Part shown: one piece after another, positions 2,119 to 24,330 of the stretch
How positions within the stretch are numbered: the stretch's first letter is position 1
How the letters are laid out: every line of letters begins with the position of its first letter
Source of the DNA: Gracilibacillus ureilyticus
Lineage (GTDB): Bacteria > Bacillota > Bacilli > Bacillales > Amphibacillaceae
Direction of reading: 5' to 3'
NCBI RefSeq assembly: GCF_900111195.1
Contig: NZ_FOGL01000003.1
Location: 62,001-126,000 of the forward strand
DNA length: 64,000 nucleotides
Notes under the pieces: model-generated
The model's input: only the letters and a program-made list of their open reading frames with translations
What the model was told of the DNA's origin: nothing
Databases searched by the model: none
Program-made: the position numbers and the translations under genes

Positions 2119-2670
2119 CTATAAGTTGACATCAATTTGTATCAATGTATCTTCTTCTTTTTCTATTCCTAAGTATTCGAGTGTTTCAAGAGTTGAAGAA
2201 TGATGGAGTATTTTCTGCAGTAAGGATATTGCTACACCCTTCTTATAGGCATGATATCCAAATGTTTTCCTTAAAGTGTGTGTTCCAACATTTTCTGTTA
2301 TTCCGATTTCTTTTGCAGCATGATTGATAATTCGATATGCTTGCTGCCGGGTAATTGGAAGTTCACTTTTCTGTGATTTAAACAGGTAGTGATCCATCTG
2401 AAGATTATTACATTCCAAATAGGATTTTGTTGCGTTTTTAATATTGTGATTAAGATAATAGGGGGGATCGGTGTCTCTGAGAAAAATGAAGTCCTTCATC
2501 TGCTGGCCATCCCAGACATGACTGACTTTAAGGTGTAATAGATCATTAAGACGAAGGCCTGTGTTTATACCGACAGTAAAAAACACATAATCTCTTTTCG
2601 AATGGTGAAATAAGAGCTGCTTTATTTGATTGATTTGATCAATTTCCTTAATTGGATGAACAAATTCCAT
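2119..2670 (-). CDS. Solo-catalytic tyrosine recombinase/integrase
   Basis: At 183 residues this is only the catalytic domain of a tyrosine recombinase; the N-terminal core-binding (SAM-like) domain of normal XerC/D or phage integrases is absent. Visible catalytic elements are the first arginine in NTGLRLNDLL, the HTLRKTFG box (His and second Arg), the second histidine in LHHSS and the nucleophile tyrosine in LEYLGI. It has a strong ribosome site (GAGGAGG). No att repeats, excisionase or other mobile genes are nearby. It could be a domesticated recombinase or a remnant of a departed element; short recombinases of this type are found singly in many Bacillaceae. Confidence 0.85.
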   Translation of the reverse strand: MEFVHPIKEIDQINQIKQLLFHHSKRDYVFFTVGINTGLRLNDLLHLKVSHVWDGQQMKDFIFLRDTDPPYYLNHNIKNATKSYLECNNLQMDHYLFKSQKSELPITRQQAYRIINHAAKEIGITENVGTHTLRKTFGYHAYKKGVAISLLQKILHHSSTLETLEYLGIEKEEDTLIQIDVNL

Positions 2671-2845: not shown

Positions 2846-3838
2846 ATGAATCGAAAAACTATTATCTATATAATCCTTTCTGTATGTCTGTTTATCTCTA
2901 TTAGCTTCTCGATCTATTACTATACTCAAGCTGAACATTACGATCAGCAAATAGATGAAGTGACGGAACCGGATTCCTCTTTACCGGCATATCATTTTGT
3001 TCTAATCGGAGAGGAAATGGATCATGATTACTGGCGGCTAGTTGGAGAAGGTGCAAAAGACACAGAAGAAAAATACGATGTTTTTGTAGAATATGAAGGA
3101 CCAAGAAGATCTAATCCGGAGGAACAACTCGAATTACTTGATATTGCAATAAAGTCTGATGTAGATGGCATTATTGTTCAGGCGCTTAGTGATGATTTCC
3201 TTCCATTGATAAACAAGGCTGTCAGGGAAGGGATACCTGTCATAACTATCGATACAGATGCTCCCGAGAGCACCAGGGCCAGTTACATAGGAACGGACAA
3301 TTATGAAGCGGGCAAGCTTGCTGGAGAAACTCTAGTGAAAGATACAAACGGTGAAGCGACGATTGGAATCATTACTGGAAGTTTTACTAATGCGCATCAT
3401 CAGTTACGCGTGCAGGGTTTCCGTGAAATTATCTCCCGGGAAGAAGGGATAGAGGTTGTCGCCATTGAGGAATCAAATATTACAAGGGTTACTGCGGAAG
3501 AAAAGGCATATCAAATGTTAAAGGAATATCCGAACATTGATGCATTATATGGAACGAGCGCATTAGATGGAATTGGCATGGCACAGGCTACCGCTTCATT
3601 GAACTTAACTAATGATGATTTGTATTTAATTGCTTTTGACACTTTGCCGGAGAATGTTGAATTAATGAAACAAGGGAAAATTGACGTATTAATTGAACAA
3701 AAGCCATATGAAATGGGGTATCGCAGTATTGAATTAATGCTCGATGTGATGGAGGGACTACCGGTAGAAGATGCCTATAACACTGATGTTAACGTTGTTC
3801 GGATAGAAGATATAATAAAGAAGAGTGAAGGCTTATGA
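2846..3838 (+). CDS. Membrane-anchored periplasmic-type sugar-binding protein (sensor component)
   Basis: The chosen ATG at 2846 follows a GTGGGGGA ribosome site and gives 330 residues; an upstream TTG/ATG extension lacks a site. Residues about 5-27 are a hydrophobic segment without a lipobox cysteine, so the protein is probably a signal-anchored, cell-surface protein. The rest is a type I periplasmic-binding fold (RbsB/Peripla_BP_4), with VDGIIVQALSDD, PVITIDTDAPES and YIGTDNYEAG segments typical of pentose- or hexose-binding proteins. No ABC permease or ATPase is adjacent. Instead its end overlaps a LytS/YesM-type kinase gene by four bases, so it probably senses a sugar and signals to that kinase, as XylFII does in clostridia. 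The sugar is unknown. Confidence 0.85.
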   Translation: MNRKTIIYIILSVCLFISISFSIYYYTQAEHYDQQIDEVTEPDSSLPAYHFVLIGEEMDHDYWRLVGEGAKDTEEKYDVFVEYEGPRRSNPEEQLELLDIAIKSDVDGIIVQALSDDFLPLINKAVREGIPVITIDTDAPESTRASYIGTDNYEAGKLAGETLVKDTNGEATIGIITGSFTNAHHQLRVQGFREIISREEGIEVVAIEESNITRVTAEEKAYQMLKEYPNIDALYGTSALDGIGMAQATASLNLTNDDLYLIAFDTLPENVELMKQGKIDVLIEQKPYEMGYRSIELMLDVMEGLPVEDAYNTDVNVVRIEDIIKKSEGL

Positions 3839-5247
3839 TAAAGATCCGTACGAAATTGCTCATTTATTTTGTTGCTGTTTTGATATTAGTTATTGTGATG
3901 TTTTTTGTAAGGGAACAGAATGCTGCAAGAATTATTGAGCTTCATAATGAAAGTACTGAACAGTATTTACTATTAAACGAGTTGACCAGTAAGACAGATC
4001 AAACATTTCAATCATTGCAGATTTACGTTCATGAACCGATTAAGGAAAACTTAATCTACTACCAAGAGGATAAGCAGCAGTTGTTAGATTTGCAACAAGA
4101 ATATGACCAGCTAACATCAAAGGGAATTGAGAAGAAGAACTACTTGAATGTCTTAACAAGTTTCCTTAAGTATAGTGATCAGACAGTCCGGGGTGTAGAC
4201 GAGAATGATGTTGAACAATACTCATTTTCTTTAAATGAAGCTGATAACACTGCGGATTATATCCATGAGAAAACATTGGAACTGTTAAATGAAGAGTTAA
4301 CTTCCTATCAGCAGTTTATAACATTAGAGGATAAGAGAATTGCCTATACAAAAAATATGGGGACCGCAGTTTTTGTTTCCATTATTATAGTTAGTGTTTT
4401 TTTTGCTGTATGGTTTTCTGACGGAATAACGAGAACAATATCGAATTTAACTAATGCTGCAAAGGAAATATCTGCAGGTAATTATCAGGGCAAGGATGTT
4501 GAAGTCCCGACAAAAGATGAGTTATCGATCTTAACAGAGACATTTAATGAGATGAAACGTAATATCTCAGAGTCTGTCACTGAGGTAAAGGAAAAGGCGA
4601 GACTTGCTCAATTATTGAAGGAGATGGAATTGAGAAGTTTGCAAAATCAAATTAATCCACACTTCTTATTCAATACGTTAAATACTATTTCAAAAACCGC
4701 CTATATCGAAGGAGCTGAACGGACTAGTGACTTAATTTCTTCCATATCATCTCTGCTGCGTTATAATATTGGGAATATGGAACGAGATACTACGATTAAA
4801 GATGAAGTGGAGATCGTTAAGGAATACTTCTTTATCCAGGAAAGCCGATTTGGTGACCGAGTAACATTTCGTTTAAATGTGGAGGAAGGTTGCGTGAACA
4901 AATCTATTCCTTGTTTAACGTTACAGCCAATTGTTGAAAATGCATTTGTTCATGGTATAGAAGGAATGGCAGATGGTGCAACAATTGAATTACATATCTA
5001 CCAATATGATCAACAGGTATGTATAGATATTAAAGATAACGGTGCAGGCATGGATCAGACTGCTATTAATCGTATATTTAATTCTGATGAAAGCGATGAA
5101 AAGATCGCAGAAAGCCGTTCAGGCCATTCAACAGGAATAGGTCTAAGGAATGTTATTGACCGCTTAAAGTTATTTGATAAAAATAGCGAAATGTCCATTA
5201 AGTCAGAACGGGGAAAAGGGACTGTTGTACAGATCAGACTAACTTAG
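3835..5247 (+). CDS. Sensor histidine kinase, LytS/YesM type
   Basis: 470 residues: a transmembrane helix at about 7-24, an extracytoplasmic helical region to about 175, a second helix at about 177-195, a HAMP segment, then the His_kinase domain with the phospho-acceptor histidine near residue 276 in the NQINPHFLFNTL motif, and an HATPase domain with N box (IVENAFVHG), DNGAGM and GIGLRN boxes. The ATG overlaps the stop of the sugar-binding protein gene (ATGA), indicating translational coupling. It probably receives its signal from that binding protein, since its own outer domain is short and coiled-coil-like, and passes phosphate to the regulator encoded next. Confidence 0.9.
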   Translation: MIKIRTKLLIYFVAVLILVIVMFFVREQNAARIIELHNESTEQYLLLNELTSKTDQTFQSLQIYVHEPIKENLIYYQEDKQQLLDLQQEYDQLTSKGIEKKNYLNVLTSFLKYSDQTVRGVDENDVEQYSFSLNEADNTADYIHEKTLELLNEELTSYQQFITLEDKRIAYTKNMGTAVFVSIIIVSVFFAVWFSDGITRTISNLTNAAKEISAGNYQGKDVEVPTKDELSILTETFNEMKRNISESVTEVKEKARLAQLLKEMELRSLQNQINPHFLFNTLNTISKTAYIEGAERTSDLISSISSLLRYNIGNMERDTTIKDEVEIVKEYFFIQESRFGDRVTFRLNVEEGCVNKSIPCLTLQPIVENAFVHGIEGMADGATIELHIYQYDQQVCIDIKDNGAGMDQTAINRIFNSDESDEKIAESRSGHSTGIGLRNVIDRLKLFDKNSEMSIKSERGKGTVVQIRLT

Positions 5248-5263
5248 AAAGGGGAAAAGGCAA

Positions 5264-6817
5264 TTGATCAAAGTTATGCTCGTTGATGATGAGGCAATTG
5301 AACGAGAAGGAATTCGCCTAATGCTGGAGAGAAACCGGTTAAATTTAGAAATTGTAGCAGAGGCACAAAATGGGGAAAAAGCAATTGAACTTGCAGAGAT
5401 GCACAAGCCAGATATTATTTTTATGGATATTAAAATGCCTGTCATCGATGGTCTTCAAGCAACAAAAGAGATACTATCTCAATTACCTGACACCAAATGC
5501 ATTATGGTTTCTGCATATGATACATTCCAATATGCACAGGATGCGATGAGATTCGGTGTGAAGGAATACTTATTGAAGCCTGGCAAAGTGACCGAAGTAA
5601 TAGAAGCTTTTGATCGTATGGCAAAAGAAGTTCAAACTAAAAAAGCACAAGTAAAAGAGAATGAAACTATACGGGGGAAATTGGAACAATCCAACGCATT
5701 AATGGAAATGGAATTAATTGTTTCACTGATGATGGATCACGTCCATGAGTTTAGTAATTGGGATCAGTGGTTTGACATGAATAATATGAAAGGGTTTGTC
5801 GCTGTTTTTTCATTTTCATCAGAGTATCTGAATCCGGATTATCATACAAAAGGTGAATGGTACAGGCTATTGAAACAATCATTAGAAGAACAACCATTGA
5901 AATGTTTTATTGGTCCTTTAACAAGCTTCCAAGTTCCTGTATTTGTAAAAACCGACGAAAATGAATCAAAGGAATTAAGTGAGAATTTTGCAAAAACAGT
6001 CATTCATTCTTCAATTAGCAGGCTGGACGGATGTGAATTAATCGCTGGGATAGGAACACAAGTAGCTAATATACAAAATTTCAGGATCTCATATGAAGAG
6101 GCCACATACGCATTAGCGCTAGTCCAAAATCATTCTGATGCTAATTTTTTAGTATATAGCAGTAAGCTGGAGGAGAGAAGAAAGGAATTTATTCCATATG
6201 AATTAGAGAAGAATGTATTAGAAGCCGTTCAAAAGGGAGATCAGCAAGATGGAATGAAGGCTTTCGAGCAGTACTTCCAATGGATTCAGCAATATGCTAA
6301 CTACAACGTGAGTAAGGTACAAAAGGCAACAGAAGACTTTTTCATCATTCTAACTAGATCAACACAAGAATTAGGATTAGACCAGGACTTCTCCATTCCT
6401 CTACTTCAGTATGAGACGAATATGCAAATAAAAGAAGCGGCAAAGATTCACATTTTGACAATTATTAAGCAAATTAATGATTGGAGAGCAAACGGGGTTA
6501 AAGGTTTACTCGTTCAGGCGAAGGAGTATGTGACACACCATTTTCAAAAGACACTTACCCTGGAAGAAGTAGCAACACAGGTGAATCTTAGCTCCTATTA
6601 TTTAAGTAAGCTTTTTAAAGAGTATTTTGATAAAACATTTGTAGAATATCTGACAGAATTAAGAATTCAGAAAGCGAAAACTTATCTGTTAAACGGCGCC
6701 ACCCCGCTTAAAGAAATTGCTATAAATATTGGTTACAAGGATCCAAATTATTTCAGCCGGGTTTTTAAAAAAGAAACTGGTTTGAGTCCGAGTGAATACC
6801 GGCATAAATATCAATAA
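5264..6817 (+). CDS. Response regulator with AraC-type DNA-binding domain (YesN type)
   Basis: 517 residues from a TTG start preceded by GAAAGGGG. The receiver domain occupies residues 1-120 with phospho-acceptor Asp55 (IIFMDIKMP) and the conserved lysine in EYLLKPG. A long variable middle follows, and the C-terminal ~100 residues form a double helix-turn-helix AraC domain (VNLSSYYLSKLFKEYF and GYKDPNYFSRVFKKETG). It is the output of the upstream kinase, 16 bases downstream of its stop. The most obvious target is the MFS sugar porter gene 0.5 kb downstream, or its own operon. Confidence 0.9.
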   Translation: MIKVMLVDDEAIEREGIRLMLERNRLNLEIVAEAQNGEKAIELAEMHKPDIIFMDIKMPVIDGLQATKEILSQLPDTKCIMVSAYDTFQYAQDAMRFGVKEYLLKPGKVTEVIEAFDRMAKEVQTKKAQVKENETIRGKLEQSNALMEMELIVSLMMDHVHEFSNWDQWFDMNNMKGFVAVFSFSSEYLNPDYHTKGEWYRLLKQSLEEQPLKCFIGPLTSFQVPVFVKTDENESKELSENFAKTVIHSSISRLDGCELIAGIGTQVANIQNFRISYEEATYALALVQNHSDANFLVYSSKLEERRKEFIPYELEKNVLEAVQKGDQQDGMKAFEQYFQWIQQYANYNVSKVQKATEDFFIILTRSTQELGLDQDFSIPLLQYETNMQIKEAAKIHILTIIKQINDWRANGVKGLLVQAKEYVTHHFQKTLTLEEVATQVNLSSYYLSKLFKEYFDKTFVEYLTELRIQKAKTYLLNGATPLKEIAINIGYKDPNYFSRVFKKETGLSPSEYRHKYQ

Positions 6818-6846
6818 AAAGTGGCCATAAATGAATAATCTATCTG

Positions 6847-6919
6847 GCGAGACTGGGATATAAAGGAGTTTTTCTTACTCGACCTGCCCCGAGAGTTTAT
6901 ATATTCCATCTCGCTTTTT
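6847..6919 (+). terminator. Long imperfect hairpin terminator
   Basis: GCGAGA with a following TGGGATATAAA pairs with TTTATATATTCCA and TCTCGC, with a run of five T at 6915-6919. The shape, a GAGACTGGGA...TCTCGC stem with a long loop, is the kind of terminator-like repeat often found after genes in Bacillaceae and lactic acid bacteria. It would end the sensor operon transcript. Confidence 0.65.
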
Positions 6920-7276
6920 GATGATAACAACAGCAAGTATAGTCAACTCCTCTTGCTCCACAGCGTATTAATCCTATCTATCAAACACCTAATTCCCATT
7001 TGAATTGCTCCCGCAGAAATTGAATAATCCCATCTAGTGGAGGGAAAATGCAACACGCCCGGATAGGTAGTGTTGTTTTCCGAATCTACTCTTACAGCGG
7101 GAAATCCAATTCCTTTATTATTTGTCTTTAGCTTACAAATATTGGTTTCGTCCAGGCTGCTTTTTCTAGAAAACCGTGGCCAATCACAAAAAAGTCTAGC
7201 ATAAAACAAAATAGTGAAGATGAATGCGCTATTTTGTAAATGTATACATGGTAAATTGTTAACAAGCTAGCAAAAA
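6920..7276. other. Apparently non-coding gap, possibly decayed DNA
   Basis: This stretch separates the sensor operon from the sugar porter. An 88-codon frame on the minus strand (6943-7209) would start at a TTG without a ribosome site and matches nothing I recognise. A short palindrome ATGTATACAT lies near 7237. It may hold the binding site of the YesN-type regulator, or be the remains of an inactivated gene. Confidence 0.4.
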
Positions 7277-7290
7277 TGAAAGCGAATCAA
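7277..7290 (+). promoter_or_regulatory. Candidate cre (CcpA) site upstream of the sugar porter
   Basis: TGAAAGCGAATCAA keeps the TGNAANCG core of the catabolite-repression element but departs from consensus in the right half. It sits about 52 bases before the porter start, a position where CcpA could block transcription. Confidence 0.4.
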
Positions 7291-7342
7291 CTTAATAAAG
7301 AAACCGGTATCAATAAAATAACAGTAAGGGTGAGTGATCAAC

Positions 7343-8743
7343 ATGGAAAAGAAACATTCATTATGGTATGTCATATTAATTGCTGCATCTGCCGGTATGG
7401 CGGGTTTGTTATATGGTTTTGATACGGCAGTGATTTCGGGTGCAATTGGATACCTTCAGGACTTGTATGACTTAAGTCCGGCAATGGAAGGCTGGGTTAT
7501 CTCCTGTGTCATGATCGGTGGTGTCATTGGTGTAGCATTATCAGGCTTTTTAAGTGACAAATTTGGCCGAAAGAATATATTAATGGTTTCAGCCATATTT
7601 TTTATCATATCTGCATTGGGATCTGCATTCGCTATTGATGTAACGACATTAGTACTTGCAAGAATACTCGGCGGTTTCGGAATAGGTTTTGCTTCCGCAT
7701 TATCAGTTACGTATATCAGTGAATGTGCTCCGCCTGCAATTCGCGGAAGATTAGGGTCTATGTATCAGCTTTTCACCATTCTCGGTATTTGTGCGACATT
7801 CTATATCAATTACGGTGTAGCAAATAGCGGAACATATGAATGGGGACTTGAAGCAGGATGGCGCTGGATGTTAGGGTATGGAACAATTCCCGGGATTATC
7901 TTTTTATTCCTCTTGTTCTTTATTCCTGAGAGTCCACGGTATCTGATTCAAAAAGGGAAAGACCAGGAAGCTTATCAAATATTGAAAAGAATTAACGGGG
8001 AAGAAATTGCTAAAAAAGAAGAAAAAGATATTAAGGCATCTATTAAAGCAGAACAAAGCAGTTCGGCAAAGGAATTATTAAAACCAGGTTTACGAATGGC
8101 AATGGGTGTAGGAGTTTTCCTCGCATTATTTAATCAGGTGATTGGTATGAATGCGGTCACATACTATGGTCCGGATATCTTCCGGAGTGTAGGGTTTGAA
8201 AACAATACAGAGTTCTTAGCTACAAGTATTATCGGAAGTGTACAAGTTGTATTTACTATTGTCGCAATCCTGTTAATTGATAAGCTGGGCAGAAAAAAAC
8301 TGATGGCAATCGGTTCCAGCTTTATGGCAATCTTCATGCTGTTAATCGGCAGTGTGTTTTATTTTTCACCAGCTAATGCAGGAGTGTTGCTCATTATTCT
8401 GATCGCTGGCTTTACTGCATCTTTCTGTATCTCGATGGGTCCGATTCCATGGATTATGATTCCGGAGATTTTTCCGAATCATTTACGGGCGAAGGCGGTA
8501 GGAATTGCAACCATTTTCTTATGGGGAGCTAACTGGGCTATTGGACAGTTCACACCAGTATTAATTAACAATATGGGCAGTGCCTTTACTTTCTGGATGT
8601 TCGCTGTTATAAATGTAATCTGCTTTATCTTCGTCATGACAATCGTTCCGGAGACAAAGAATAAAACACTGGAAGAGATCGGTGAAATCTGGAAGCCGAA
8701 AACAGCGGCAAAAAAGAAAAAAACATATGAAGAAATGGTTTGA
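7343..8743 (+). CDS. MFS sugar:proton symporter (sugar porter family)
   Basis: The ATG at 7343 follows AAGGGTGA at good spacing; a GTG nine bases earlier is too close to it. The 466 residues hold about 12 membrane helices and the family signatures: GLLYGFDTAVISGA in helix 1, SDKFGRKN between helices 2 and 3, PESPRYL after helix 6, DKLGRKK between helices 8 and 9, and PETKNKTLEEI after helix 12. A helix-3/4 region loop and the AVISGA motif resemble XylE/XylT-type pentose or glucose symporters. It imports a monosaccharide with protons. It lies downstream of the three-component sugar sensor, which probably controls it. The substrate is not provable here; xylose, arabinose, galactose and glucose are all possible. 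Confidence 0.88.
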   Translation: MEKKHSLWYVILIAASAGMAGLLYGFDTAVISGAIGYLQDLYDLSPAMEGWVISCVMIGGVIGVALSGFLSDKFGRKNILMVSAIFFIISALGSAFAIDVTTLVLARILGGFGIGFASALSVTYISECAPPAIRGRLGSMYQLFTILGICATFYINYGVANSGTYEWGLEAGWRWMLGYGTIPGIIFLFLLFFIPESPRYLIQKGKDQEAYQILKRINGEEIAKKEEKDIKASIKAEQSSSAKELLKPGLRMAMGVGVFLALFNQVIGMNAVTYYGPDIFRSVGFENNTEFLATSIIGSVQVVFTIVAILLIDKLGRKKLMAIGSSFMAIFMLLIGSVFYFSPANAGVLLIILIAGFTASFCISMGPIPWIMIPEIFPNHLRAKAVGIATIFLWGANWAIGQFTPVLINNMGSAFTFWMFAVINVICFIFVMTIVPETKNKTLEEIGEIWKPKTAAKKKKTYEEMV

Positions 8744-8951: not shown

Positions 8952-8992
8952 AAAAATGGTTCCAGATAAATTTATTATCCGGAACCATTTTT
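8952..8992. terminator. Bidirectional terminator overlapping the 3' end of the germination operon
   Basis: AAAAATGGTTCC and GGAACCATTTTT form a perfect 12-bp stem with a 17-base loop. A and T runs on both sides allow termination in both directions. The last sense codons and the stop codon (8975-8977) of the convergent gerB-type gene lie inside the structure. Confidence 0.9.
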
Positions 8993-10105
8993 ACTTTGTT
9001 CTGTCCCATTCTTTGTCATCTTCTTCACTTTTTTCCTCGCGATAGACGCAAGCAAAATACAAACAGGCAAAATGAACGCAAATACGAAAGAAACAACAAA
9101 GTATGGCCCTGAGATAAAAGAATAGGCATTAAATGTATTGGGAACCATGATGGTAGCACCAAAGAATAACAAAAGTGCCAGTGGAATAGAAAAGGTTTTA
9201 TTATCTTTTAATTTGAACAGATGATTCAAACCGGTTTCCAGGACATAATAAGAGATACATATTTTAAAGAAAATAGTGAAAAACCAGATAAAGGCAACAA
9301 GTATTTCTATCCGTTCAAAGAAATCCATAATACTGATTCTCTGACCTAATGCATATATTGGATAAGTATAATGGGTAGTTGCTTTGACACCAAGTACCAT
9401 AATACATGCAAACGTAATGATAGATAAAATTCCACCGCTAATAAACCCGCCAAGCATTAAACCCCGCTTCGCACTTTTTGGTCTGTTCACTTTATGCGTC
9501 ATACCAAGAAGAATAAATAACTCCAAATATGTAATCCCAATAATTGGAAGCGCCCCTACAAACGTTCCGATTCGGTTCAGTTGAAAAACAGGTTGAATAT
9601 TCTCGATGTTGGCATCTTTCATCACAAGGATTGTTACTAGTAATGCAAAAAACAGGGTGAATGGAATGAATACTTCGGCTGTTCTTCCGATAACTTCCAT
9701 TCCATATCTGACTGCAATAAGAGCAGTAATTACAATTAACAATTCAATTGCTTCTTCGGGGGTACCCATGAGAATTTGCAGTGACATAAAGTCACCGATT
9801 GACCAGACATTCGCCACTGCATTGAGATAGATATAACCATTGAAGAAAATGATAAGCATAAAACCTAACCATTTTCCGAAAGTCTCTTCGATAAGGCTGA
9901 AAATACTCTTTTCCATCTGCTGATTAATAATAGCATTATACAATAAGATGATCAGTAACCCGGACAGTGTAGCGATGATTACAGTGAGCCACCCGTTTTC
10001 TTTCCCGATAGAAGCAGCAATAGATGGGATAAATATTATCGAAGCCCCAAGTGTGTTCATGATAACCAGAATTGTAAATTGCCTGCCGTCAATCTTTTCT
10101 ATCAT
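8975..10105 (-). CDS. Spore germination receptor B subunit (GerAB/GerKB family)
   Basis: 376 residues with about 10 hydrophobic helices, the endospore germination permease fold (GerAB/ArcD-like, APC superfamily). The N-terminus (FTILVIMNTLGASIIF) and the GTPEEAIELLI stretch are typical. In the spore inner membrane this subunit is thought to bind the germinant. It is the last of four genes transcribed A-C-D-B. GGGAGGTG lies upstream of the ATG. The germinant cannot be inferred. Confidence 0.92.
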   Translation of the reverse strand: MIEKIDGRQFTILVIMNTLGASIIFIPSIAASIGKENGWLTVIIATLSGLLIILLYNAIINQQMEKSIFSLIEETFGKWLGFMLIIFFNGYIYLNAVANVWSIGDFMSLQILMGTPEEAIELLIVITALIAVRYGMEVIGRTAEVFIPFTLFFALLVTILVMKDANIENIQPVFQLNRIGTFVGALPIIGITYLELFILLGMTHKVNRPKSAKRGLMLGGFISGGILSIITFACIMVLGVKATTHYTYPIYALGQRISIMDFFERIEILVAFIWFFTIFFKICISYYVLETGLNHLFKLKDNKTFSIPLALLLFFGATIMVPNTFNAYSFISGPYFVVSFVFAFILPVCILLASIARKKVKKMTKNGTEQSKNGSG

Positions 10106-10126
10106 TCATCGCACCTCCCGACAGAA

Positions 10127-10381
10127 TTAACCCCCATTCTCCCGGTAGCTTTTCAGCCATTGTCCGATCGGGTCTGAAACTGGTTTTGTCACAGCTTCTA
10201 CCATGCTGACAATATAGGGGAATTTTATACCGAATAACCCAAGGGAAATAAGGATAACAGCAAGGGTCATGGTAGTCAGAAAGAAGATTAAATCCTTTCT
10301 AAGTTTTAATTTGCTCAGTCTCTTTATTTCTATATAAAAGAAGAAAGCACTTATGGACCAGAATAATAATACATTCAGCAT
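10127..10381 (-). CDS. Small two-helix membrane protein of the germination operon (D-subunit-like)
   Basis: The ATG at 10381 has AGGAGG at ideal spacing, giving 84 residues; a longer frame to 10420 overlaps the upstream gene and lacks a site. Two hydrophobic helices (about residues 3-20 and 32-55) flank a basic loop (KRLSKLKLRKD), followed by a short polar tail. Small membrane proteins of this size in ger operons have been called D subunits and modulate receptor output in Bacillus. Its assignment rests on size, topology and position, not on a sequence motif. Confidence 0.75.
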   Translation of the reverse strand: MLNVLLFWSISAFFFYIEIKRLSKLKLRKDLIFFLTTMTLAVILISLGLFGIKFPYIVSMVEAVTKPVSDPIGQWLKSYRENGG

Positions 10382-10382
10382 A

Positions 10383-11594
10383 TTAACCTCCTGACCCCGT
10401 CTTCTCCATGACATCATCATATATCGGTGTAGTAATGGAACCAGACTGATTTATTTCTATCGTAACATTAGCTTTAATCTCTGTTTGCTGGAAATGTTCG
10501 GGCCAGTTACCCTTTATTTTTTCCCATTGCTTCGGCTGTGACTTTCTTAGCACACTGCCAAAACCAAAGATGTCACTGTTAAATTCCTTTGCAGCATTTA
10601 CACTGGAATTGATAAGGTCAACTGTTTTTTGTTCTAACTTTTTTTCAATCTCTTTGATGGACTCAGGTATGGATAAATCAATGGAGCATGAAATTTCACC
10701 AACATTGACAGTTATATTTGTTTCTACGGTTATTTTAGGATGGCCGTTTACAAAAGATCCCTTCAATTTTGTATCACTATTTGTTGTTTCTAACGAAATC
10801 TTCCCGCCGTCTTCACACTCGACCCAGCCGACCGTATTGTTTATATTATTAGTGATATAATTGAATCCTTTGCTCTCCTTTTCACTTAACCATCCAATTA
10901 GCTTATCCCCATTAAAAATACCGATACTGTTTAGCCGGGTCTTTACCGGTGGATCGGATTGGGTCACATTTTGAACCGTTTTCCCTATTTCCGGATCACC
11001 CACCATGTATACTCCTGTCATTACAGCTTCCTTTCCTGTTGAAGTCATTGATTCAAACAGTTCATATAGTTGCACTTCCTTAGTTGGTGCCCAGAAGTTT
11101 TGTGATGATTGAATACTTGCAGTAATCCTCTGTGCAGGTATCTTTTCAAGAGGTGTGATTACACTAATCAGTTCCTCACCGGTCGTGTCTTTGGCAATAA
11201 CCATATGGAAATCTGTCCGAAAGCCATGATCTCTGACTAAATAATCAATTGTTTCTCCAATGCCTTCCCGAGCAAATTCTTCACCAAAAATAACTACCTG
11301 AAGGTGGCTTAAATGGACTCTTCTCGGGGAAGCTTTCGTTAACTTTCTAATAGCCTCAAAGATAGTTTTTCCGGTTGCTGAATAGATTACTACACTGGAT
11401 CTATTGGAGATCTGGTCTCCGGCAATTTCGGTTGGATTAACTACCTGGATAGTCACCTTGAAACCATCCTCATCATCCTTATCAATTGCTAGTCCTGTTG
11501 CTAAAGTAATTTCAGTTAATTCCTCTGAACTCCAGCAGCCGGTTAGACTGATACAGATAAATAAAGAGATGAAAAGTTTAAATAGAGTGCTCAT
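10383..11594 (-). CDS. Spore germination receptor C subunit, lipoprotein (GerAC family)
   Basis: 403 residues with a lipoprotein signal peptide ending in the lipobox LTGCW (Cys near residue 20). The mature protein follows the Ger(x)C pattern: WSSEELTEITLATGLAIDKD at the start, an RRVHLSHLQVVIFGEE segment in the middle and a C-terminal domain with conserved SVNAAKEFNSDIFGFG. It is anchored on the outer face of the spore inner membrane as part of the receptor. It starts 12 bases after the A subunit stop, and its end meets the small D gene directly. Confidence 0.93.
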   Translation of the reverse strand: MSTLFKLFISLFICISLTGCWSSEELTEITLATGLAIDKDDEDGFKVTIQVVNPTEIAGDQISNRSSVVIYSATGKTIFEAIRKLTKASPRRVHLSHLQVVIFGEEFAREGIGETIDYLVRDHGFRTDFHMVIAKDTTGEELISVITPLEKIPAQRITASIQSSQNFWAPTKEVQLYELFESMTSTGKEAVMTGVYMVGDPEIGKTVQNVTQSDPPVKTRLNSIGIFNGDKLIGWLSEKESKGFNYITNNINNTVGWVECEDGGKISLETTNSDTKLKGSFVNGHPKITVETNITVNVGEISCSIDLSIPESIKEIEKKLEQKTVDLINSSVNAAKEFNSDIFGFGSVLRKSQPKQWEKIKGNWPEHFQQTEIKANVTIEINQSGSITTPIYDDVMEKTGSGG

Positions 11595-11606
11595 ATAATC
11601 CCTCTT

Positions 11607-13196
11607 CTATCCTTTTTTATCAGGCATAGGCCTTTGACTGTCCTCTCGAATAGTATTTCGCTGATTAATAAGCCTTGGCCTAGTCCTGAGCTTCCACCTA
11701 GGTGCACGAAATACAGCATCTTTCTGATCATTTGATATAAAGGGAGCAAATGGTGACATATAGGGGATGCCAAAAGACCTTAAACTGCTTAAATGTAATG
11801 TTAATATGAGTAAACCAATAAAGATGCCAAACAAACCGAATGTTGCTGCCATTATCATAAAAGGAAAGCGTAGCATTCTAACACTGATTGCTAAATTATA
11901 ACTTGGAAAGATAAAACTGCTGATCGCCGTTAAGGAAACAACGATAACCATCGTTGCTGATACAATTCCTGCATCTACCGCTGCCTGACCTAACACGAGC
12001 GCTCCTACAATTGAAATGGCGGATCCAACTGCACTAGGAAGCCGTATGCCCGCTTCCCGCAGAATTTCGAAGGTCACTTCCATTAAAAGAGCTTCAACCA
12101 CTGCAGGGAATGGGATTCCTTCTCTTTGTGCAGCTAAGCTGATAAGAAGGGTTGTTGGTATCATTTCCTGGTGGAACGTCGTTAAAGCAATATAAGTAGA
12201 CGGTGTTAGCAAAGCAAGGAAAAAAGCTATAAAACGTAATGCTCTTATTAAGCTGGATATATCACTTCTCTGGTAATAATCTTCATTCGATTGAAAGAAA
12301 TCGAGAAAAAGTGCTGGTACGAGTAAGACAAAAGGAGTACCGTCAACTAAGATGGCTACTTTTCCCTCTAATAGACCTGCACTGATTGCATCAGGTCTTT
12401 CACTGTTGATCATCGTTGGGAAAGGCGTGTATGTCTCGTCTTGGATCAATTCCTCCACATATCCACTTTCCAGAATTGCATCAATATCCATTTTATCTAA
12501 CCTTGACTTAACCTCTTCCACAACACCGGGGTTAACAATGCCGTGTATGTAGGCAATTGTTACTTTTGTTTGTGTCTTTGTTCCATAAACAAAGGATTCC
12601 AGCCACAAATTCGGGTCCTTTATCCTTTTGCGGATTAGAGCAATATTCACACTGATAGTTTCTGTAAAGGCGTCTTTCGGTCCCCGAACAACTCTTTGTG
12701 TTGTTGGTTCCTCCACTCCGCGCTCTTTTGCTCCCCTGGCACCTACCGCAAACCCTTTATTAACTCCGTCAATCAGTAAAATAGTATCTCCGGCTAATAA
12801 ATGCTGCAGCAGTGTTTTAAAATTACTAATCTCCGTTAATTCAGCTGTAGTGATATTGAAGTTCTTGATATATTGATAAAGTTGCTGAACATCTGGGATT
12901 TTTTCATTAGCATTCGTTCCTCTGAGATCATTAATGATTGGATTCAAAAGATAGTTTTGAACAATTTCTTTATCAATGAGACCTTCCAAAAATATAATAG
13001 CTGCATTTACAGGGTGGATTTTTCCCAGCTGAAAAGCTCTTGTTTCTACATCAGAGCTGTTTCCTAAAAGCCGGAATACTTCCTTTTTATTCGCTTCAAG
13101 TTCATTAGACAAATTAACATCGAAGTGGGAAGATATGTTATCGATTTCTATTCGTTTTGTATTATTCTTTTTCCGGATTCTATGTTTCATCGCCAT
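11607..13196 (-). CDS. Spore germination receptor A subunit (GerAA/GerKA family)
   Basis: 529 residues: a soluble N-terminal domain (about 1-290, containing the family segments DTILLIDGVNKGFAVGARG and REGVEEP-like TQRVVRGPKDAFTE) and a C-terminal membrane domain with about five or six helices, including REGIPFPAVVEALLMEVTFEILREAG. It is the first gene of the receptor operon. GAGGATAA precedes the ATG. A sigma-G (forespore) promoter would be expected, but I could not find a convincing one in the short region shared with the divergent regulator gene. A GTG-less, canonical ATG start supports the boundaries. Confidence 0.93.
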   Translation of the reverse strand: MAMKHRIRKKNNTKRIEIDNISSHFDVNLSNELEANKKEVFRLLGNSSDVETRAFQLGKIHPVNAAIIFLEGLIDKEIVQNYLLNPIINDLRGTNANEKIPDVQQLYQYIKNFNITTAELTEISNFKTLLQHLLAGDTILLIDGVNKGFAVGARGAKERGVEEPTTQRVVRGPKDAFTETISVNIALIRKRIKDPNLWLESFVYGTKTQTKVTIAYIHGIVNPGVVEEVKSRLDKMDIDAILESGYVEELIQDETYTPFPTMINSERPDAISAGLLEGKVAILVDGTPFVLLVPALFLDFFQSNEDYYQRSDISSLIRALRFIAFFLALLTPSTYIALTTFHQEMIPTTLLISLAAQREGIPFPAVVEALLMEVTFEILREAGIRLPSAVGSAISIVGALVLGQAAVDAGIVSATMVIVVSLTAISSFIFPSYNLAISVRMLRFPFMIMAATFGLFGIFIGLLILTLHLSSLRSFGIPYMSPFAPFISNDQKDAVFRAPRWKLRTRPRLINQRNTIREDSQRPMPDKKG

Positions 13197-19439: not shown

Positions 19440-20720
19440 ATGAGAAAGCTATCATTTATCATTATTATCAGTTTTGGATTAATGTTGGGACTAGTGGCTT
19501 GCAGCAGTGGCGAAAGTCAGGAAACGTCAGGTAATGACGTTATTGAACTGACACTATGGAATGACTGGACAGAAGACAGACCGGAAAACAGAGCGTATAA
19601 AAGCATGGTAGAGAAATTTAATGAACAGCATGATGATATTGAAGTAGTAATTGAAGCAATTCCGCACGATCAGTATGAAACCAAACTTCGTACACAGGCA
19701 GCGGGCCAGCAATTGCCAGACATGTTTCGTGTATGGCCTGGAGCAAGAATTCAGCCATTAGTTGAAGGAGATGCCGTTCTGCCATTAAACGATATTACAG
19801 ATAATTGGAAAGGATATATTCCGGAAGCTATTATGGAAGATTATGCAGTAGACGGAAATCAATATGCGATTCCTGGGAATGTTAGTGAAACCAGCCTGAT
19901 TTTCTACAATAAAGAAATGGTTGCACAAGCAGGGTTTGACACATTTCCAGCAACGTATGAAGAGTTAAAAACATTAATTCAGTCATTAAATGACCAGGAT
20001 ATCACACCAATTGCTTTAGGGAATAAAGGTATTTGGCCGCTTCAATCTATTTATATATCAACAATTGCTGACAGATTCACCGGAAGTGATTTTCTGCCAG
20101 ATGTATTAAATGGAGAGGGTTCATTTGAAAATGAGCAGTTTATTAAATCTTTGGCTGTTATCCAGGAGTTAACTGAAATGAATGCGTTTAACTCTGATAT
20201 GAACACATTAGATGAAGCTCAGGCCCGTAATAACTTTATCAGTGGAAATACAGCGATGCATTTTGCAGGTTCTTGGGCGATTGGTCCGATTTTAGATAGT
20301 GTAGAGAATATTGATAATATCGGTGTAGCGCCATTTCCATCCTTTGCAGGTGGAGAGGGAGATCCGCAAAAAATCGCAGGTGTAGCAGGCGGGGGCATTG
20401 CTCTTAACAGTAAGTTAACGGAAGAAGAGCAGCAGGCAGCATTTGAATTTCTGAAATTTTTCTACAGTGATGAAATGTATCAGCAATTAATCGATGCAAA
20501 TATCATTGTCCCAGCAGATGTGGAAATTGGAGAAGACATTCCGCAGGTTTTCCAGGAAGCGAACAAATTAGCCCAAGGTGGTTTGGCTCCTGTGTATGAT
20601 GCGACCTTAACGCCTGAGTTAACAGATGTGATTAATAATGGATTACAGTCCATTACATTAGGAGAAATGACACCGGAAGAACTAGCTGCACAGATGCAGC
20701 AGGAACTGGAGTCAGAATAA
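19440..20720 (+). CDS. Sugar ABC transporter substrate-binding lipoprotein
   Basis: 426 residues with a lipoprotein signal ending LGLVAC (Cys21). The mature part is a cluster B/MalE-like binding protein (LTLWNDWTED at the start, then MFRVWPGARIQPL and NTAMHFAGSWAIGP). It captures an oligosaccharide outside the cell for the two permeases encoded next. GGGAGG is upstream. With the GH1 enzyme and ROK kinase downstream, a beta-glucoside such as a cellodextrin is the likely ligand. Confidence 0.9.
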   Translation: MRKLSFIIIISFGLMLGLVACSSGESQETSGNDVIELTLWNDWTEDRPENRAYKSMVEKFNEQHDDIEVVIEAIPHDQYETKLRTQAAGQQLPDMFRVWPGARIQPLVEGDAVLPLNDITDNWKGYIPEAIMEDYAVDGNQYAIPGNVSETSLIFYNKEMVAQAGFDTFPATYEELKTLIQSLNDQDITPIALGNKGIWPLQSIYISTIADRFTGSDFLPDVLNGEGSFENEQFIKSLAVIQELTEMNAFNSDMNTLDEAQARNNFISGNTAMHFAGSWAIGPILDSVENIDNIGVAPFPSFAGGEGDPQKIAGVAGGGIALNSKLTEEEQQAAFEFLKFFYSDEMYQQLIDANIIVPADVEIGEDIPQVFQEANKLAQGGLAPVYDATLTPELTDVINNGLQSITLGEMTPEELAAQMQQELESE

Positions 20721-20788
20721 TAATGCAGTATTCAGGTTGCTAATTTAAACAGATTAGCAGCCTGTGACTCATATTGGAGGTGAAATGG

Positions 20789-21664
20789 ATGCATGCAGCA
20801 AGAAATAGAACAATCGCCATTACTGTCGGAATATTGCCAGCATTAATCATTTACCTGATTTTTGCTATCCTGCCTATCTTACAATCATTTTATTATTCCT
20901 TTATGGAATGGGATGGATTTTCGGATATGCGATATGTAGGGCTGGCAAACTTCATTGAATTATTTCAGGATCCATTGTTTTGGAATTCGATGAAAAATAA
21001 TATATATGTTGTTTTGGCTTCTGTACTGGGCCAAGTCCCAATTGCCTTGTTTATTGCCTTATTATTAAACAGGAAGATTAAAGGCCTGAAAATTTTCCGA
21101 ACGATCGGCTTTTTACCAGTAGTTCTTTCAACGGTCGTTATATCCATCACTTGGAGTCTAATTTATAATTCCGAAAACGGCTTAATTAATGAGTTGCTTC
21201 GGACAGCTGGCCTCGATTTTTTGGCGCAAAATTGGCTTGGTGATTCGAATTGGTCGATGATTGCAGTATTGGTGACAGTCATTTGGCAATTTGTAGGTTT
21301 ATATTTAATTATATTCTTAGCAGCATTGCAAAACGTGCCGGAAGAAGTATTGGAAGCAGCTAAAATGGATGGAGCTTCGGAATGGAAGACAACATGGAGT
21401 ATTACCATCCCAATGATATGGGATACGATTATCGTAGCAGTTATTCTTTGTATCTCAGGCAGCTTAAAGACATTTGATCTCATTTACGTTATGACAAATG
21501 GCGGTCCGGCTCATTCTACTGACGTAATGGCATTATATATGTTTAATGAGACATTTAGTAAATTACAATATGGATACGGCAGTGCGGTTTCTGTCATTAT
21601 TTTCTTCTTCAGTCTGATTTTAATTTATACAGTAACAAAATTATTAGGAAGAAAAATGCTCTAG
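20789..21664 (+). CDS. Sugar ABC transporter permease (MalF/UgpA type)
   Basis: The ATG at 20789 sits six bases after GGAGGTG, giving 291 residues; an upstream TTG lies inside that site. Six membrane helices are predicted. The EAA loop for ATPase contact reads EAAKMDGASEWKTTWSITIP. Pairs with the following permease. Confidence 0.9.
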   Translation: MHAARNRTIAITVGILPALIIYLIFAILPILQSFYYSFMEWDGFSDMRYVGLANFIELFQDPLFWNSMKNNIYVVLASVLGQVPIALFIALLLNRKIKGLKIFRTIGFLPVVLSTVVISITWSLIYNSENGLINELLRTAGLDFLAQNWLGDSNWSMIAVLVTVIWQFVGLYLIIFLAALQNVPEEVLEAAKMDGASEWKTTWSITIPMIWDTIIVAVILCISGSLKTFDLIYVMTNGGPAHSTDVMALYMFNETFSKLQYGYGSAVSVIIFFFSLILIYTVTKLLGRKML

Positions 21665-21680
21665 AAAGGAGGGCGAACTG

Positions 21681-22553
21681 ATGCAGTCAACTTATGAAAA
21701 GCTAGAACAGCAAAAGGGTGCACTGAGAAAAAAGTTCCCCATCAAGAAGCCTGTTATCTACTTCATTCTCATTATATTTGCGATTGTGAATGCATATCCA
21801 ATTATCTGGATGGTTATTAATTCGTTTAAGTCAGAACAGGAATTTGCTACAAATCAATTCGGTCTTCCACAGGAATTAGTTTTTGAAAATTACATTAGTG
21901 CCTGGAATACTGCCAATCTGGGGACATTGTTTACTAACAGTATTTTTATTTGCCTTACAGCAACTTTTTTAACTGTATTGATCGGTGCATTTACGTCATA
22001 CTTTCTTTCAAGATTTACCTTCAAACTGAATAAGGTTGTATACACATTCTTTATTTTTGGGATGCTGATTCCGATCCATGCAACATTAGTTCCAATGTTT
22101 ATTTTGATGAGAAATTTAGGGTTGCTTAATACTCCTGTTACATTAATTTTTCCGTATATCGCTTTCCACTTGCCAATAACTATTTTTATTTTGACAAGCT
22201 TCATGAAGGCTTTTCCAAAAGATATTGAAGAATCAGCCATTATGGATGGATGCGGGATATTCCGGATCTTCTGGTCGATTATTCTGCCAATGTCACGACC
22301 TGCTTTAGCTACAGTGATTATATTGAATTTTATTTATAACTGGAACGAGTTTTCTTTTGCACTTGTCTTGATCAATGATCCTAATCTGCAAACATTACCA
22401 TTAGGTCTAGCCAGTTTTGCCGGGCAATTTACAACCAATTACGGTGCGCAGATGGCAGGTCTTACCATGTCGTTAATCCCAATTATTGCTTTTTATCTCC
22501 TTTTGGAAAAAGAAATCGTAAAAGGCATGACAGCAGGTGCTGTAAAAGGATAG
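21681..22553 (+). CDS. Sugar ABC transporter permease (MalG/UgpE type)
   Basis: 290 residues, six membrane helices after a short cytoplasmic start, with the EAA-type loop ESAIMDGCGIFRIFWSIILP. It begins 16 bases after the first permease. No ATPase gene is present in the operon, so the transporter must borrow a shared ATPase of the MsmX type, as several B. subtilis sugar importers do. Confidence 0.9.
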   Translation: MQSTYEKLEQQKGALRKKFPIKKPVIYFILIIFAIVNAYPIIWMVINSFKSEQEFATNQFGLPQELVFENYISAWNTANLGTLFTNSIFICLTATFLTVLIGAFTSYFLSRFTFKLNKVVYTFFIFGMLIPIHATLVPMFILMRNLGLLNTPVTLIFPYIAFHLPITIFILTSFMKAFPKDIEESAIMDGCGIFRIFWSIILPMSRPALATVIILNFIYNWNEFSFALVLINDPNLQTLPLGLASFAGQFTTNYGAQMAGLTMSLIPIIAFYLLLEKEIVKGMTAGAVKG

Positions 22554-22584
22554 TATGATAGGTAAATAACAAAAGGTGATGTGT

Positions 22585-24330
22585 ATGTTTCGACATTGGA
22601 GCTTAAGAAAGAAATTTATCTTTGTATTTTTTGTTTTGATTACCTTGCCTACTATTCTTTTTGGCAGCTTAATCTATTATCAGGCAACAGATGTCTTTAA
22701 GGATCAGGCAATAGAAAATATTAATGCAAGATTAGAAAAAAACAATGAAAACTTACTGGAGAATCTGCGGACAATCGAAAATATATCTTCCTTCATGATT
22801 TATGATGAGAGTTTTCGCACATTCTTCACAACCCCTGAAGAAGATGTCATTGTGGCTAGGGAGGCAGAAAATGATATTAAAGGTTTCTTTACCTTTCAAA
22901 TTATGAGCAATGAATACATCGATTCCATAAAATTGATTAATGAAAATGGCGATGTGCTAAATTTCGGCAATCCTGTCAGGGGAAGTGAACTATCATTACG
23001 AAGAGAGGCTGTTGCAAATGAGGGGGAGCCGGTCTGGAGCAACACGTATGAACTTTACAGTGACTGGTCCGGCAGTCATCATGTGATTAGCTTGACGAGA
23101 ATAATAAATGATATCAATCATATTTCTGAGCCAATTGGTATGGCGAGGATTCGATTAGATGAAGAACAGTTATACAACAGAATAGAGGTGGATGCAAGAC
23201 AGCAGGGAAATTTTTTTGTTCTGGCGAAAAATGGCGAAGTAGTGTTACACCCGAACCGTGAATTTGCAGGTGAATTGTATCCGGAGCAGGACGTAATTGA
23301 TTTAGTAGTTCATCATAATAAGAAGAATTCTGTTTATGAAACAGATGGGGAAAAATTCCTGATTGTGAAGCAGAGTATCCCCGGGACAAATTGGATCTCC
23401 GTAATTATGGTTAATCAGGACGATGTAGTACAAAGTTTATATAATATAAGATCATTGATTGTTTATATGGTTATCATTCTGGCTATTCTTGGTGTTATTG
23501 CATTTATAGGGTTCTACTTATGGCATATTAAGCCGATTCTCGCGTTAACAGAGCAAACGAAACAATTGGAAAAAGGAAACTTTTCGGCAAAAGTAAATGT
23601 GAATTCAAAAGATGAAATTGGCCGTTTAGGAACCAGATTTAATCAAATGGTTGTGACTATTCAAAAATATATTGACCGTGAATATAAGTTGAAAATTAAG
23701 CAGAAGGAATCTGAGTTAAAAGCTTTACAGTCGCAGATAGACCCCCACTTTCTATACAATACGCTTGATATGATCCGCTGGACTGCTCGAATGGAAAATG
23801 CAATGGAAACAAGTAAACTGATCGAGCGTTTATCTAAAATGTTCCGAATGAATTTGAACAAAGGGAGGATGTGGGTCACATTAAGGGAAGAATTATTGTA
23901 TATTGAGAATTATTTAGAATTGCAGCGGAGTAGAATGGGTGAGCGTTTAAAGTATTGTATTTATTATGATGAACAGATAAAAGATACAAAAATAATGAAA
24001 CAATTATTGCAACCGGTAGTTGAGAACAGCATTTTGCACGGATTTAAGGATCTTTCAGGAACTGGTGAAATTTATATCAGATGTTATCTTTTCGGTAAAA
24101 ATATACTGATCGATGTAATAGATAATGGCGCAGGATTTGCGGCAAGTGATACAGACCAGATTCGCGATGGATTTGCACTGGAGAATATCCAGGAAAGATT
24201 GAATTTGGCAACAGGTGAAGACTCTGAGGTAAAACAGAAAAGTGTGGAAAAAGGTGCATGGGTTCAAATAAAGATACCTTTGTATGACATAATGGAGGGA
24301 AATAAAAAAGAATCAGGTGAAAACAAATGA
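22585..24330 (+). CDS. Sensor histidine kinase, YesM type with dCache-like outer domain
   Basis: The ATG at 22585 follows AAAAGGTGA; two earlier starts overlap the site. The 581 residues comprise a membrane helix (about 10-32), a large outer domain of ~260 residues of the double-Cache type, a second helix (about 290-312), HAMP, a His_kinase domain with SQIDPHFLYNTLD and an HATPase domain with VVENSILHG and DNGAGF. It overlaps the regulator gene by four bases. It probably senses an extracellular saccharide or the loaded binding protein and controls this operon. Confidence 0.9.
   Translation: MFRHWSLRKKFIFVFFVLITLPTILFGSLIYYQATDVFKDQAIENINARLEKNNENLLENLRTIENISSFMIYDESFRTFFTTPEEDVIVAREAENDIKGFFTFQIMSNEYIDSIKLINENGDVLNFGNPVRGSELSLRREAVANEGEPVWSNTYELYSDWSGSHHVISLTRIINDINHISEPIGMARIRLDEEQLYNRIEVDARQQGNFFVLAKNGEVVLHPNREFAGELYPEQDVIDLVVHHNKKNSVYETDGEKFLIVKQSIPGTNWISVIMVNQDDVVQSLYNIRSLIVYMVIILAILGVIAFIGFYLWHIKPILALTEQTKQLEKGNFSAKVNVNSKDEIGRLGTRFNQMVVTIQKYIDREYKLKIKQKESELKALQSQIDPHFLYNTLDMIRWTARMENAMETSKLIERLSKMFRMNLNKGRMWVTLREELLYIENYLELQRSRMGERLKYCIYYDEQIKDTKIMKQLLQPVVENSILHGFKDLSGTGEIYIRCYLFGKNILIDVIDNGAGFAASDTDQIRDGFALENIQERLNLATGEDSEVKQKSVEKGAWVQIKIPLYDIMEGNKKESGENK

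Follow-up and report, generated by a model that had tools for sequence, protein, structure and literature searches.

The XylFII-LytS/YesN system of Clostridium beijerinckii is described in PMC7098912 as regulating xylFGH, and the XylFII-LytS complex is cited in PMC6321045. In Staphylococcus aureus, according to PMC6291074, a receptor said to bind the signal (glucose-6-phosphate), a kinase and a regulator, together HptRSA, control the transporter UhpT, and the uhpT promoter carries the regulator site at −96 to −67 and a putative catabolite-responsive element (cre) at −61 to −46. The locus described here, from Gracilibacillus ureilyticus, occupies positions 2846 to 8743 of a 64,000-nucleotide stretch of contig NZ_FOGL01000003.1 (positions 62,001 to 126,000; hereafter the window), and encodes an anchored RbsB-like binding protein, a LytS-type histidine kinase and a YesN-type regulator beside a sugar porter of the major facilitator superfamily (MFS). 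Conserved gene order and an operator-like site in front of the porter make it very probable that this three-component sensor switches on the neighbouring porter gene through that site.

The three sensor genes are tightly packed on the plus strand. The first (2846..3838) encodes an RbsB-like binding protein of 330 residues (Pfam Peripla_BP_4, E 1.1e-58), the presumed sugar receptor, which contains a single N-terminal hydrophobic stretch (residues 1-27) and in which no lipobox cysteine was seen by eye. The second gene (3835..5247), whose start overlaps the receptor gene by 4 bases, encodes a LytS/YesM-type histidine kinase with an outer domain followed by HAMP, His_kinase and HATPase domains (Pfam). 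The hydrophobic stretches of the kinase, residues 1-31 and 172-199, enclose an outer domain (~32-171) that matches, at profile positions 35-167, the sensor domain with which LytS was solved together with XylFII (5xsd_L, 5xsj_L; E ~5e-6). The original prediction, which called this domain small, is corrected in that the domain is of the LytS kind and not negligible. In a profile search the kinase core matches 6swj (E 2.1e-92), and His276, the presumed phospho-acceptor, is invariant in all 36 aligned kinases. After a gap of 16 bp the third gene (5264..6817, TTG start) specifies a YesN/AraC-type response regulator (Response_reg 1.7e-26, HTH_18 1.1e-24). The locus contains three features of XylFII-LytS-type sensors, namely an anchored RbsB-like receptor encoded beside its kinase, a LytS-like outer domain combined with a His_kinase core, and, in the same operon, a regulator with a receiver and an AraC helix-turn-helix (HTH) domain.

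The closest structural match of the receptor is 6gq0 (E 2.4e-90), which we take to be GanP of Geobacillus stearothermophilus and whose sequence is placed among Geobacillus sequences in the receptor tree; XylFII (5xss, 1.3e-45) and 6sw4 (7.5e-43), presumably AraP, also match. The window receptor displays ~50% identity to GanP and 34% to XylFII. The system resembles that of C. beijerinckii in having an RbsB-like receptor, a kinase of the LytS type with a matching outer domain, a regulator of the YesN type and, presumably, a sugar outside the cell as its signal; it differs in the receptor pocket and in the very probable target, an MFS porter, whereas the XylFII system targets an ABC transporter. 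As its target is not an ABC transporter, the window system falls outside a narrow definition of XylFII systems as drivers of xylFGH, a description that fits only two of its relatives (L167 and L173).

The fourth gene (7343..8743, plus strand), which starts 525 bp beyond the regulator gene, encodes a member of the MFS sugar porter family, a sugar:H+ symporter that its context marks as AraE-like. The protein scores 392.7 bits against TIGR00879 (cut-off 237.8), matches the XylE structure 4gby (E 2.8e-91) and keeps equivalents of XylE R133 and of D27, presumably the proton-coupling Asp of XylE, so that both the family profile and the proton-coupling residue identify a sugar porter. Its score against the NCBIfam XylE equivalog, 401.7 bits, lies below the cut-off of 608, and the next best match to the porter within the G. 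ureilyticus genome has an E value of 1.1e-8. All four genes of the original prediction, the near-overlapping sensor genes and the porter beside them, are therefore in place.

A probable intrinsic terminator (6846..6920, plus strand; a hairpin with z −2.91 and an energy of −25.6 kcal/mol, behind which lies a T run) separates the sensor operon from the porter; it is absent from the list of a simple terminator scan with a loop limit of 3-8, and the simple promoter and terminator scans yielded no excess over shuffles. Upstream of the porter promoter lies the presumed regulator site, a 36-bp operator-like box (7186..7221, plus strand; matrix scan) consisting of two direct repeats 20 bp apart. The consensus of this box in relatives is ACAAAATAATCTAG-N6-ACAAAAAAGTGAAGAT (majority letters), with an extended −10 element ~25 bp further on; it is matched exactly in the window, with 0 mismatches, and in none of 100 shuffles. 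The box is the sole match within three mismatches both in the window and in the G. ureilyticus genome. The two half-sites were not grouped into a family by a repeat finder at the settings used, and the region before the receptor gene, where the sensor's promoter would lie, yielded no second box. The extended −10-like element of the window (7247..7257, plus strand; by eye) has no good −35 at the usual spacing, and a CATGRTAAATT-like or CATGATAATTT-like element occurs at the same distance from the box in most relatives. A presumed CcpA site (7276..7290, plus strand) differs at one position from WTGNAANCGNWNNCW, which we take to be the cre consensus; two further one-mismatch matches in the window, at 7234-7248 and 7298-7312, bring the total to three. 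Cre-like sites with at most one mismatch are present in 37 of 45 transporter leaders, which include two loci without a box (L168 and L171), where base shuffles would give 1.7. An open frame of 88 codons (6943-7209, minus strand), to which no Pfam family matched, also lies between the regulator and the porter box, and may be a relic or a product of chance.

The association of sensor and porter is not due to chance. In a family set of 159 genomes, receptor relatives at E 1e-60 or better were detected in 66, and 26 genomes, 17 of them from a single genus, carry receptors that group together at 54% identity or above; these constitute the sensor clade within the family. In 20 of the 26 the sensor is paired with a porter of the window type (porter (a), 82-93% identical), located ~7.5 kb or less from the receptor gene in 16 genomes and 17-35 kb away in four, while the other six contain a different porter (porter (b), 38-41% identical to the window porter), broken into pieces in one case. 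A search for the same four-gene order, which the original prediction had proposed, thus returned porter (a) or porter (b) with the sensor in all 26 genomes; homologous operons that always sit beside an unrelated gene, the outcome which that prediction had named as fatal to itself, were looked for and not encountered. Porter (a) at E 1e-120 or better is found in 23 of the 159 genomes: the 20 already mentioned, G010, where it is on a different contig from the sensor, itself accompanied by porter (b), G006, where it is linked to a 47% relative of the receptor, and G144, which has no sensor of this clade.

A similar picture emerges from the best 80 of 425 relatives in a genome collection, 39 of which (L144-L182) belong to the same clade, 21 being also in the family set and 18 additional. 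Porter (a) lies within the locus in 20 of these and beyond an island in three (seen in the matching family genomes), and porter (b) is present in 11 (two split); the remaining loci contain XylFGH (two), a sodium:solute symporter (one) or no transporter in view (two). The other 40 loci are sister sensors, for which the recognised transporters are all ABC systems of the CUT1 type or MglBAC, and a 40th clade locus, L203 of Amphibacillus cookii, is on a long branch and contains porter (a). In a tree of 83 receptors the 41 clade rows group together with support of 100/99, the row with the sodium symporter being basal and GanP lying on the ABC side. In a reduced tree of 69 labelled rows, five changes account for six transporter labels, which we read as the minimum possible. 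At L203 (also L089) a receptor of only 47% identity, with H60, N182 and H185 but Q88, is linked to porter (a) and accompanied by a weaker box, which suggests that this cassette is accelerated or independently adapted. In several draft genomes (L178/L093, L180 and L168) the kinase, porter or regulator is split into several frames, reflecting either decay or sequencing errors.

The operator-like box follows the same distribution. In the family set a porter-side box within three mismatches is present in each of the 26 sensor-clade genomes (17 exact, six with one mismatch, two with two and one with three). By contrast, none of the 133 other genomes has a match within one mismatch, and the eight with matches within three (G063 within two) are about equal in number to the nine of 133 obtained with a reversed-pattern control. 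The matches in G063 and G090 (two to three mismatches) lie upstream of a gene that is PadR-like by eye and were attributed to chance; the remaining genomes outside the sensor clade with three-mismatch matches are G006, G008, G068, G072, G083 and G098. A matrix built from 27 sites, in which leave-one-out scoring keeps close relatives in the matrix, gave scores of 31-52 in 27 of 28 site rows and 20.1 in L089, compared with a null maximum of 9.2 over 30 Markov sequences, each 64 kb long; elsewhere in the 41 scanned stretches, scores did not exceed 17.3. For the 18 loci outside the training set the matrix identified the box in 15 (17-47), L177 has it by eye, and L168 and L171 are without it. The box therefore appears to predict the target in nearly every examined member of the sensor clade. 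Among the ABC-side sister loci, 26 of 40 contain a box match above 11 and 14 contain none; in Geobacillus, Parageobacillus and Anoxybacillus the box is directly before the ABC operon in seven of nine loci (17-31; ~31 in most Geobacillus loci), L190 also has a match, and L194 is without it.

Rearranged loci provide natural experiments in which the box stays with the transporter. In four genomes (G028, G031, G034 and G036) an island separates the sensor from the porter, and the box is found with the porter; the gene that has come to lie next to the regulator does not carry it. The island (L097:7584-18203 and L098:107-5495; also L094/L095, L099/L100 and L101/L102), present in these four Gracilibacillus genomes, encodes GH95, GH43 and GH31 enzymes, an alcohol dehydrogenase, an amidohydrolase, an aldo/keto reductase, an AraC regulator, a large AraC-HTH protein and an ABC transporter, and is probably for fucosides. 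Fucose was considered and rejected as the ligand of the sensor: the island is read as an insertion because it has AraC-type regulators of its own and only weak box-like matches (12.4 and 17.3), which in two genomes fall inside the island's binding-protein gene. The box is also kept where the transporter has been exchanged. It is present where the XylE-type porter (b) replaces porter (a) and in the two loci with XylFGH neighbours (scores of 42.8 for L167 and 42.1 for L173), while at the sodium symporter of L177 (L177:12050-12343) the matrix score is 0.9 and both half-sites can be seen by eye, 21 instead of 20 bp apart. In G010 the box precedes both the sensor-linked porter (b) and the orphan porter (a), the latter with three mismatches; no box was detected at the porter (a) that occurs without this sensor (G144, L107).

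The DNA-recognition segments of the regulator are kept in most relatives. Of the aligned regulators, 34 of 39 in the porter clade and 32 of 35 on the ABC side carry the second segment, DPNYFSR, and 35 of 39 and 27 of 35, respectively, the first, SKLFK; neither occurs in any of 16 rows of paralogues from the G. ureilyticus genome, which include some genes twice and some cut short. The L203 regulator has DPNYFSR and lacks SKLFK. Four of the five porter-clade regulators without DPNYFSR are from Halalkalibacter loci with porter (b) (L174, L176, L179 and L180), the fifth being the broken L178, and these four loci also contain the most altered boxes, with TATAG or TAGAG for TCTAG and scores of 17-28. 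That box and segment change in the same four loci is as expected if this regulator reads this box, and it is possible that regulator and operator have changed together in Halalkalibacter.

These data are consistent with a model in which the anchored receptor would bind a monosaccharide outside the cell and act on the outer domain of the kinase, which in turn would phosphorylate the AraC-type regulator; docking, phosphotransfer and activation are inferred steps, the first by homology. The regulator, presumed to bind the two direct repeats, may then recruit polymerase at a promoter without a good −35, the adjacent sugar:H+ porter gene being the single predicted target, and CcpA, acting at the cre near the promoter, would shut the porter off when a preferred sugar is present. 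Outside sensing implies that uptake would be switched on by a sugar that is not yet inside the cell. In G. ureilyticus araD and araA are on another contig, in the vicinity of genes for an ABC transporter of the CUT1 type and for a GntR/LacI-hybrid regulator, and xylAB are on a third, and the catabolic genes would therefore keep their own control while the porter is switched from outside. The parts of the locus, their order and the operator-like site thus favour the proposal of the original prediction, that an XylFII-LytS/YesN-like sensor in a Bacillaceae drives a symporter and not an ABC transporter.

It could be argued that the sensor controls something else, such as an ABC operon or catabolic genes elsewhere, and that the porter lies passively beside it, governed by an intracellular regulator of its own. 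The porter does appear to have its own promoter, with a terminator between the two units, and an ABC-type binding protein accompanies the other LytS/YesN-type pair in the window (19440-27340). We nevertheless consider a passive porter very improbable, given that the only box match within three mismatches in the genome is at the porter, and that the box follows the porter across island insertion and transporter exchange and is absent where the porter is sensorless. Equally, the box might be the site of a different regulator, such as CcpA or a repressor of the AraR or XylR type, with the link to the sensor being accidental, a view that draws on the AraR-like GntR/LacI-hybrid regulator encoded beside the araA cluster of the same genome and on the proximity of the cre-like site to the box. 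Direct repeats 20 bp apart upstream of a promoter, however, suit an AraC-type activator and not a palindromic repressor site. Sensorless family genomes with xylA, araA or galK contain no box within one mismatch, weaker boxes are present in 26 of the 40 ABC-side sister loci, and box and recognition segment change together in the four Halalkalibacter loci, all of which make control by such a regulator very improbable. Control of the porter by the adjacent sensor remains the preferred interpretation.

The identity of the sugar is the least certain step of the model; our best guess, somewhat more likely than not, is a pentose, D-xylose or L-arabinose. The receptor pocket was compared in 40 porter-clade rows and 41 ABC-side rows (GanP included), with L177 and XylFII set apart. 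Position 60 is His in all 40 porter-clade rows and Asn in all 41 ABC-side rows, and position 185 is His in the former and Gln, Met or Leu in the latter; position 182 is Asn in 36 of 40 compared with Ala, Ser or Thr in 40 of 41, and position 88 is Arg in 39 of 40 compared with Gln in 35 of 41. The window receptor has H60, R88, N182 and H185 and not the N60, Q88, A182 and Q185 of the GanP-side pocket, while L177 displays an intermediate pocket in which N60 and S182 are combined with R88 and H185. In the alignment, positions 60 and 182 fall on an Asp and a His of MglB, which we take to be D14 and H152, contacting O4 and O6 of the hexose, and the change at these positions would suit a pentose, which lacks the CH2OH group. 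The transporters point in the same direction. The porter (b) of L092, the one copy searched, exceeds the XylE cut-off (732 vs 608), and the XylF of L167 exceeds its own (457 vs 389); the presence of both beside the same sensor clade points to D-xylose. Nine copies of porter (b) share one pocket pattern, and the pocket of porter (a) is the same in 31 copies (with a T/N exchange in two), including that of G144, where an 87% relative of the porter follows araD-araB-araA, which points to an AraE-like porter. AraE of Bacillus subtilis takes arabinose, xylose and galactose, and D-xylose would be the sugar common to AraE-like, XylE-type and XylFGH transporters.

The alternative is that the sensor reads D-galactose or D-glucose like GanP, whose ligand we take to be glucose/galactose, and that the porter is a hexose porter. 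The closest solved relative of the receptor is indeed 6gq0 (GanP), AraE-type porters also take galactose, and in our reading of the tables 14 of 39 genomes have galK no more than 25 kb from an ABC-side sister receptor. On the same reading, none of the 26 porter-clade receptors is within 25 kb of galK, which is on another contig in 20 of these genomes, and the split at positions 60, 182 and 185 from the ABC-side receptors, together with XylE and XylFGH beside the same sensor clade, makes a hexose the less favoured and rather unlikely ligand. A sister ABC-linked cassette (L108:3922-18999) is located between xylA (upstream) and araD with an FGGY kinase (downstream), showing that not all ABC-side sisters look galactose-linked.

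A pentose sensor that controls the porter has to accommodate several observations that count against it. Apart from positions 60, 88, 182 and 185 the receptor pocket is nearer to that of GanP than to that of XylFII, in our reading of the structure matches H185 is shared with AraP, and the pocket of porter (a) differs from that of XylE at six of 16 compared positions (24, 175, 288, 297, 325 and 415, XylE numbering). As xylA, araA and galK each occur in 26 of 26 sensor-clade genomes (araA of G022 as two partial frames under the cut-off), co-occurrence cannot choose the ligand, and the Fisher values for co-occurrence are inflated by the relatedness of the genomes. No catabolic gene was found regularly beside the cassette in the 15 named loci mapped and the 20 genes searched around 13 loci. 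With respect to the wiring, L168 and L171, two of the 39 named clade loci, show no porter (L168 has a fragmented regulator gene and a contig that stops there, and in L171 the next gene is on the other strand), and additional three-mismatch box matches away from the porter occur in two sensor genomes, one in G022 and three identical copies in G028. Single cases of linkage to catabolic genes were seen: an FGGY kinase follows the porter in L156, with a frame of equal length in L181, and a GH42/GH53 pair is near L167.

The system is a new wiring of a known kind of sugar sensor and not a new kind of system. GanP-type cassettes of Geobacillus share with it DPNYFSR and a related box, although their target is a three-gene CUT1 ABC transporter, which is missing downstream in the window, and their receptors differ at the four pocket positions. 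AraPST of G. stearothermophilus, which we take to consist of the receptor 6sw4 and its partners with an ABC transporter as target, likewise combines an anchored receptor, a kinase and a regulator in a Bacillaceae, but its receptor is far more distant. In B. subtilis the binding protein and two-component system of DctB-DctS-DctR-DctP drive a secondary symporter; that system handles C4-dicarboxylates and employs other protein families. UhpT is an MFS protein. HptRSA-UhpT also leads from a three-part sensor to a transporter, with regulator site and cre together in the promoter, and differs in its signal, glucose-6-phosphate, and in that UhpT is a hexose-phosphate carrier. Novelty is therefore limited by the Bacillaceae relatives with ABC targets (the Geobacillus GanP type) and by this precedent for an MFS target. 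Within the open-licence PubMed Central literature, two things seem to be new: that a sensor of free sugar has a single sugar porter as its only visible target, and that transporters have been exchanged while sensor and box stayed the same. Searches of that literature brought up no paper in which a sugar porter is driven by a sensor belonging to this clade.

Related boxes precede an AraE-like porter, a XylE-type porter, XylFGH and a sodium symporter; in the sister clades they stand before CUT1 and MglBAC systems. It is likely, judging from these sequence comparisons, that sensor and operator constitute a portable control module with an exchangeable output, which in its window form would make the porter the one visible target of induction from outside. 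AraE-type pentose porters are generally held to be induced by sugar that has already entered the cell, in a self-reinforcing loop; if confirmed, an AraE-like porter under an outside sensor with one strong operator site would open up this circuit. Loci in which the transporter has changed while sensor and operator stayed fixed offer a natural series on what transporters must share for a regulator to take them over, the H60/H185 versus N60/Q185 split is a direct handle on ligand choice, and the module could serve as a small sugar-responsive switch in Bacillus.

Other features flank the locus. A short stand-alone recombinase of the phage-integrase family (183 aa; 2119-2670, minus strand) is divergent to the sensor operon, and a GerA-type spore germination operon (8975-13196, minus strand), comprising GerA, a 403-aa frame, a small frame and a spore permease, is directly downstream of the porter. 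The second LytS/YesN-type pair of the window, at 19440-27340, is part of a conventional ABC-linked system, in which one run of genes encodes a binding protein of family 1, two frames taken for permeases solely from their size and order, a kinase of the dCache type, a regulator and a GH1 glycosidase.

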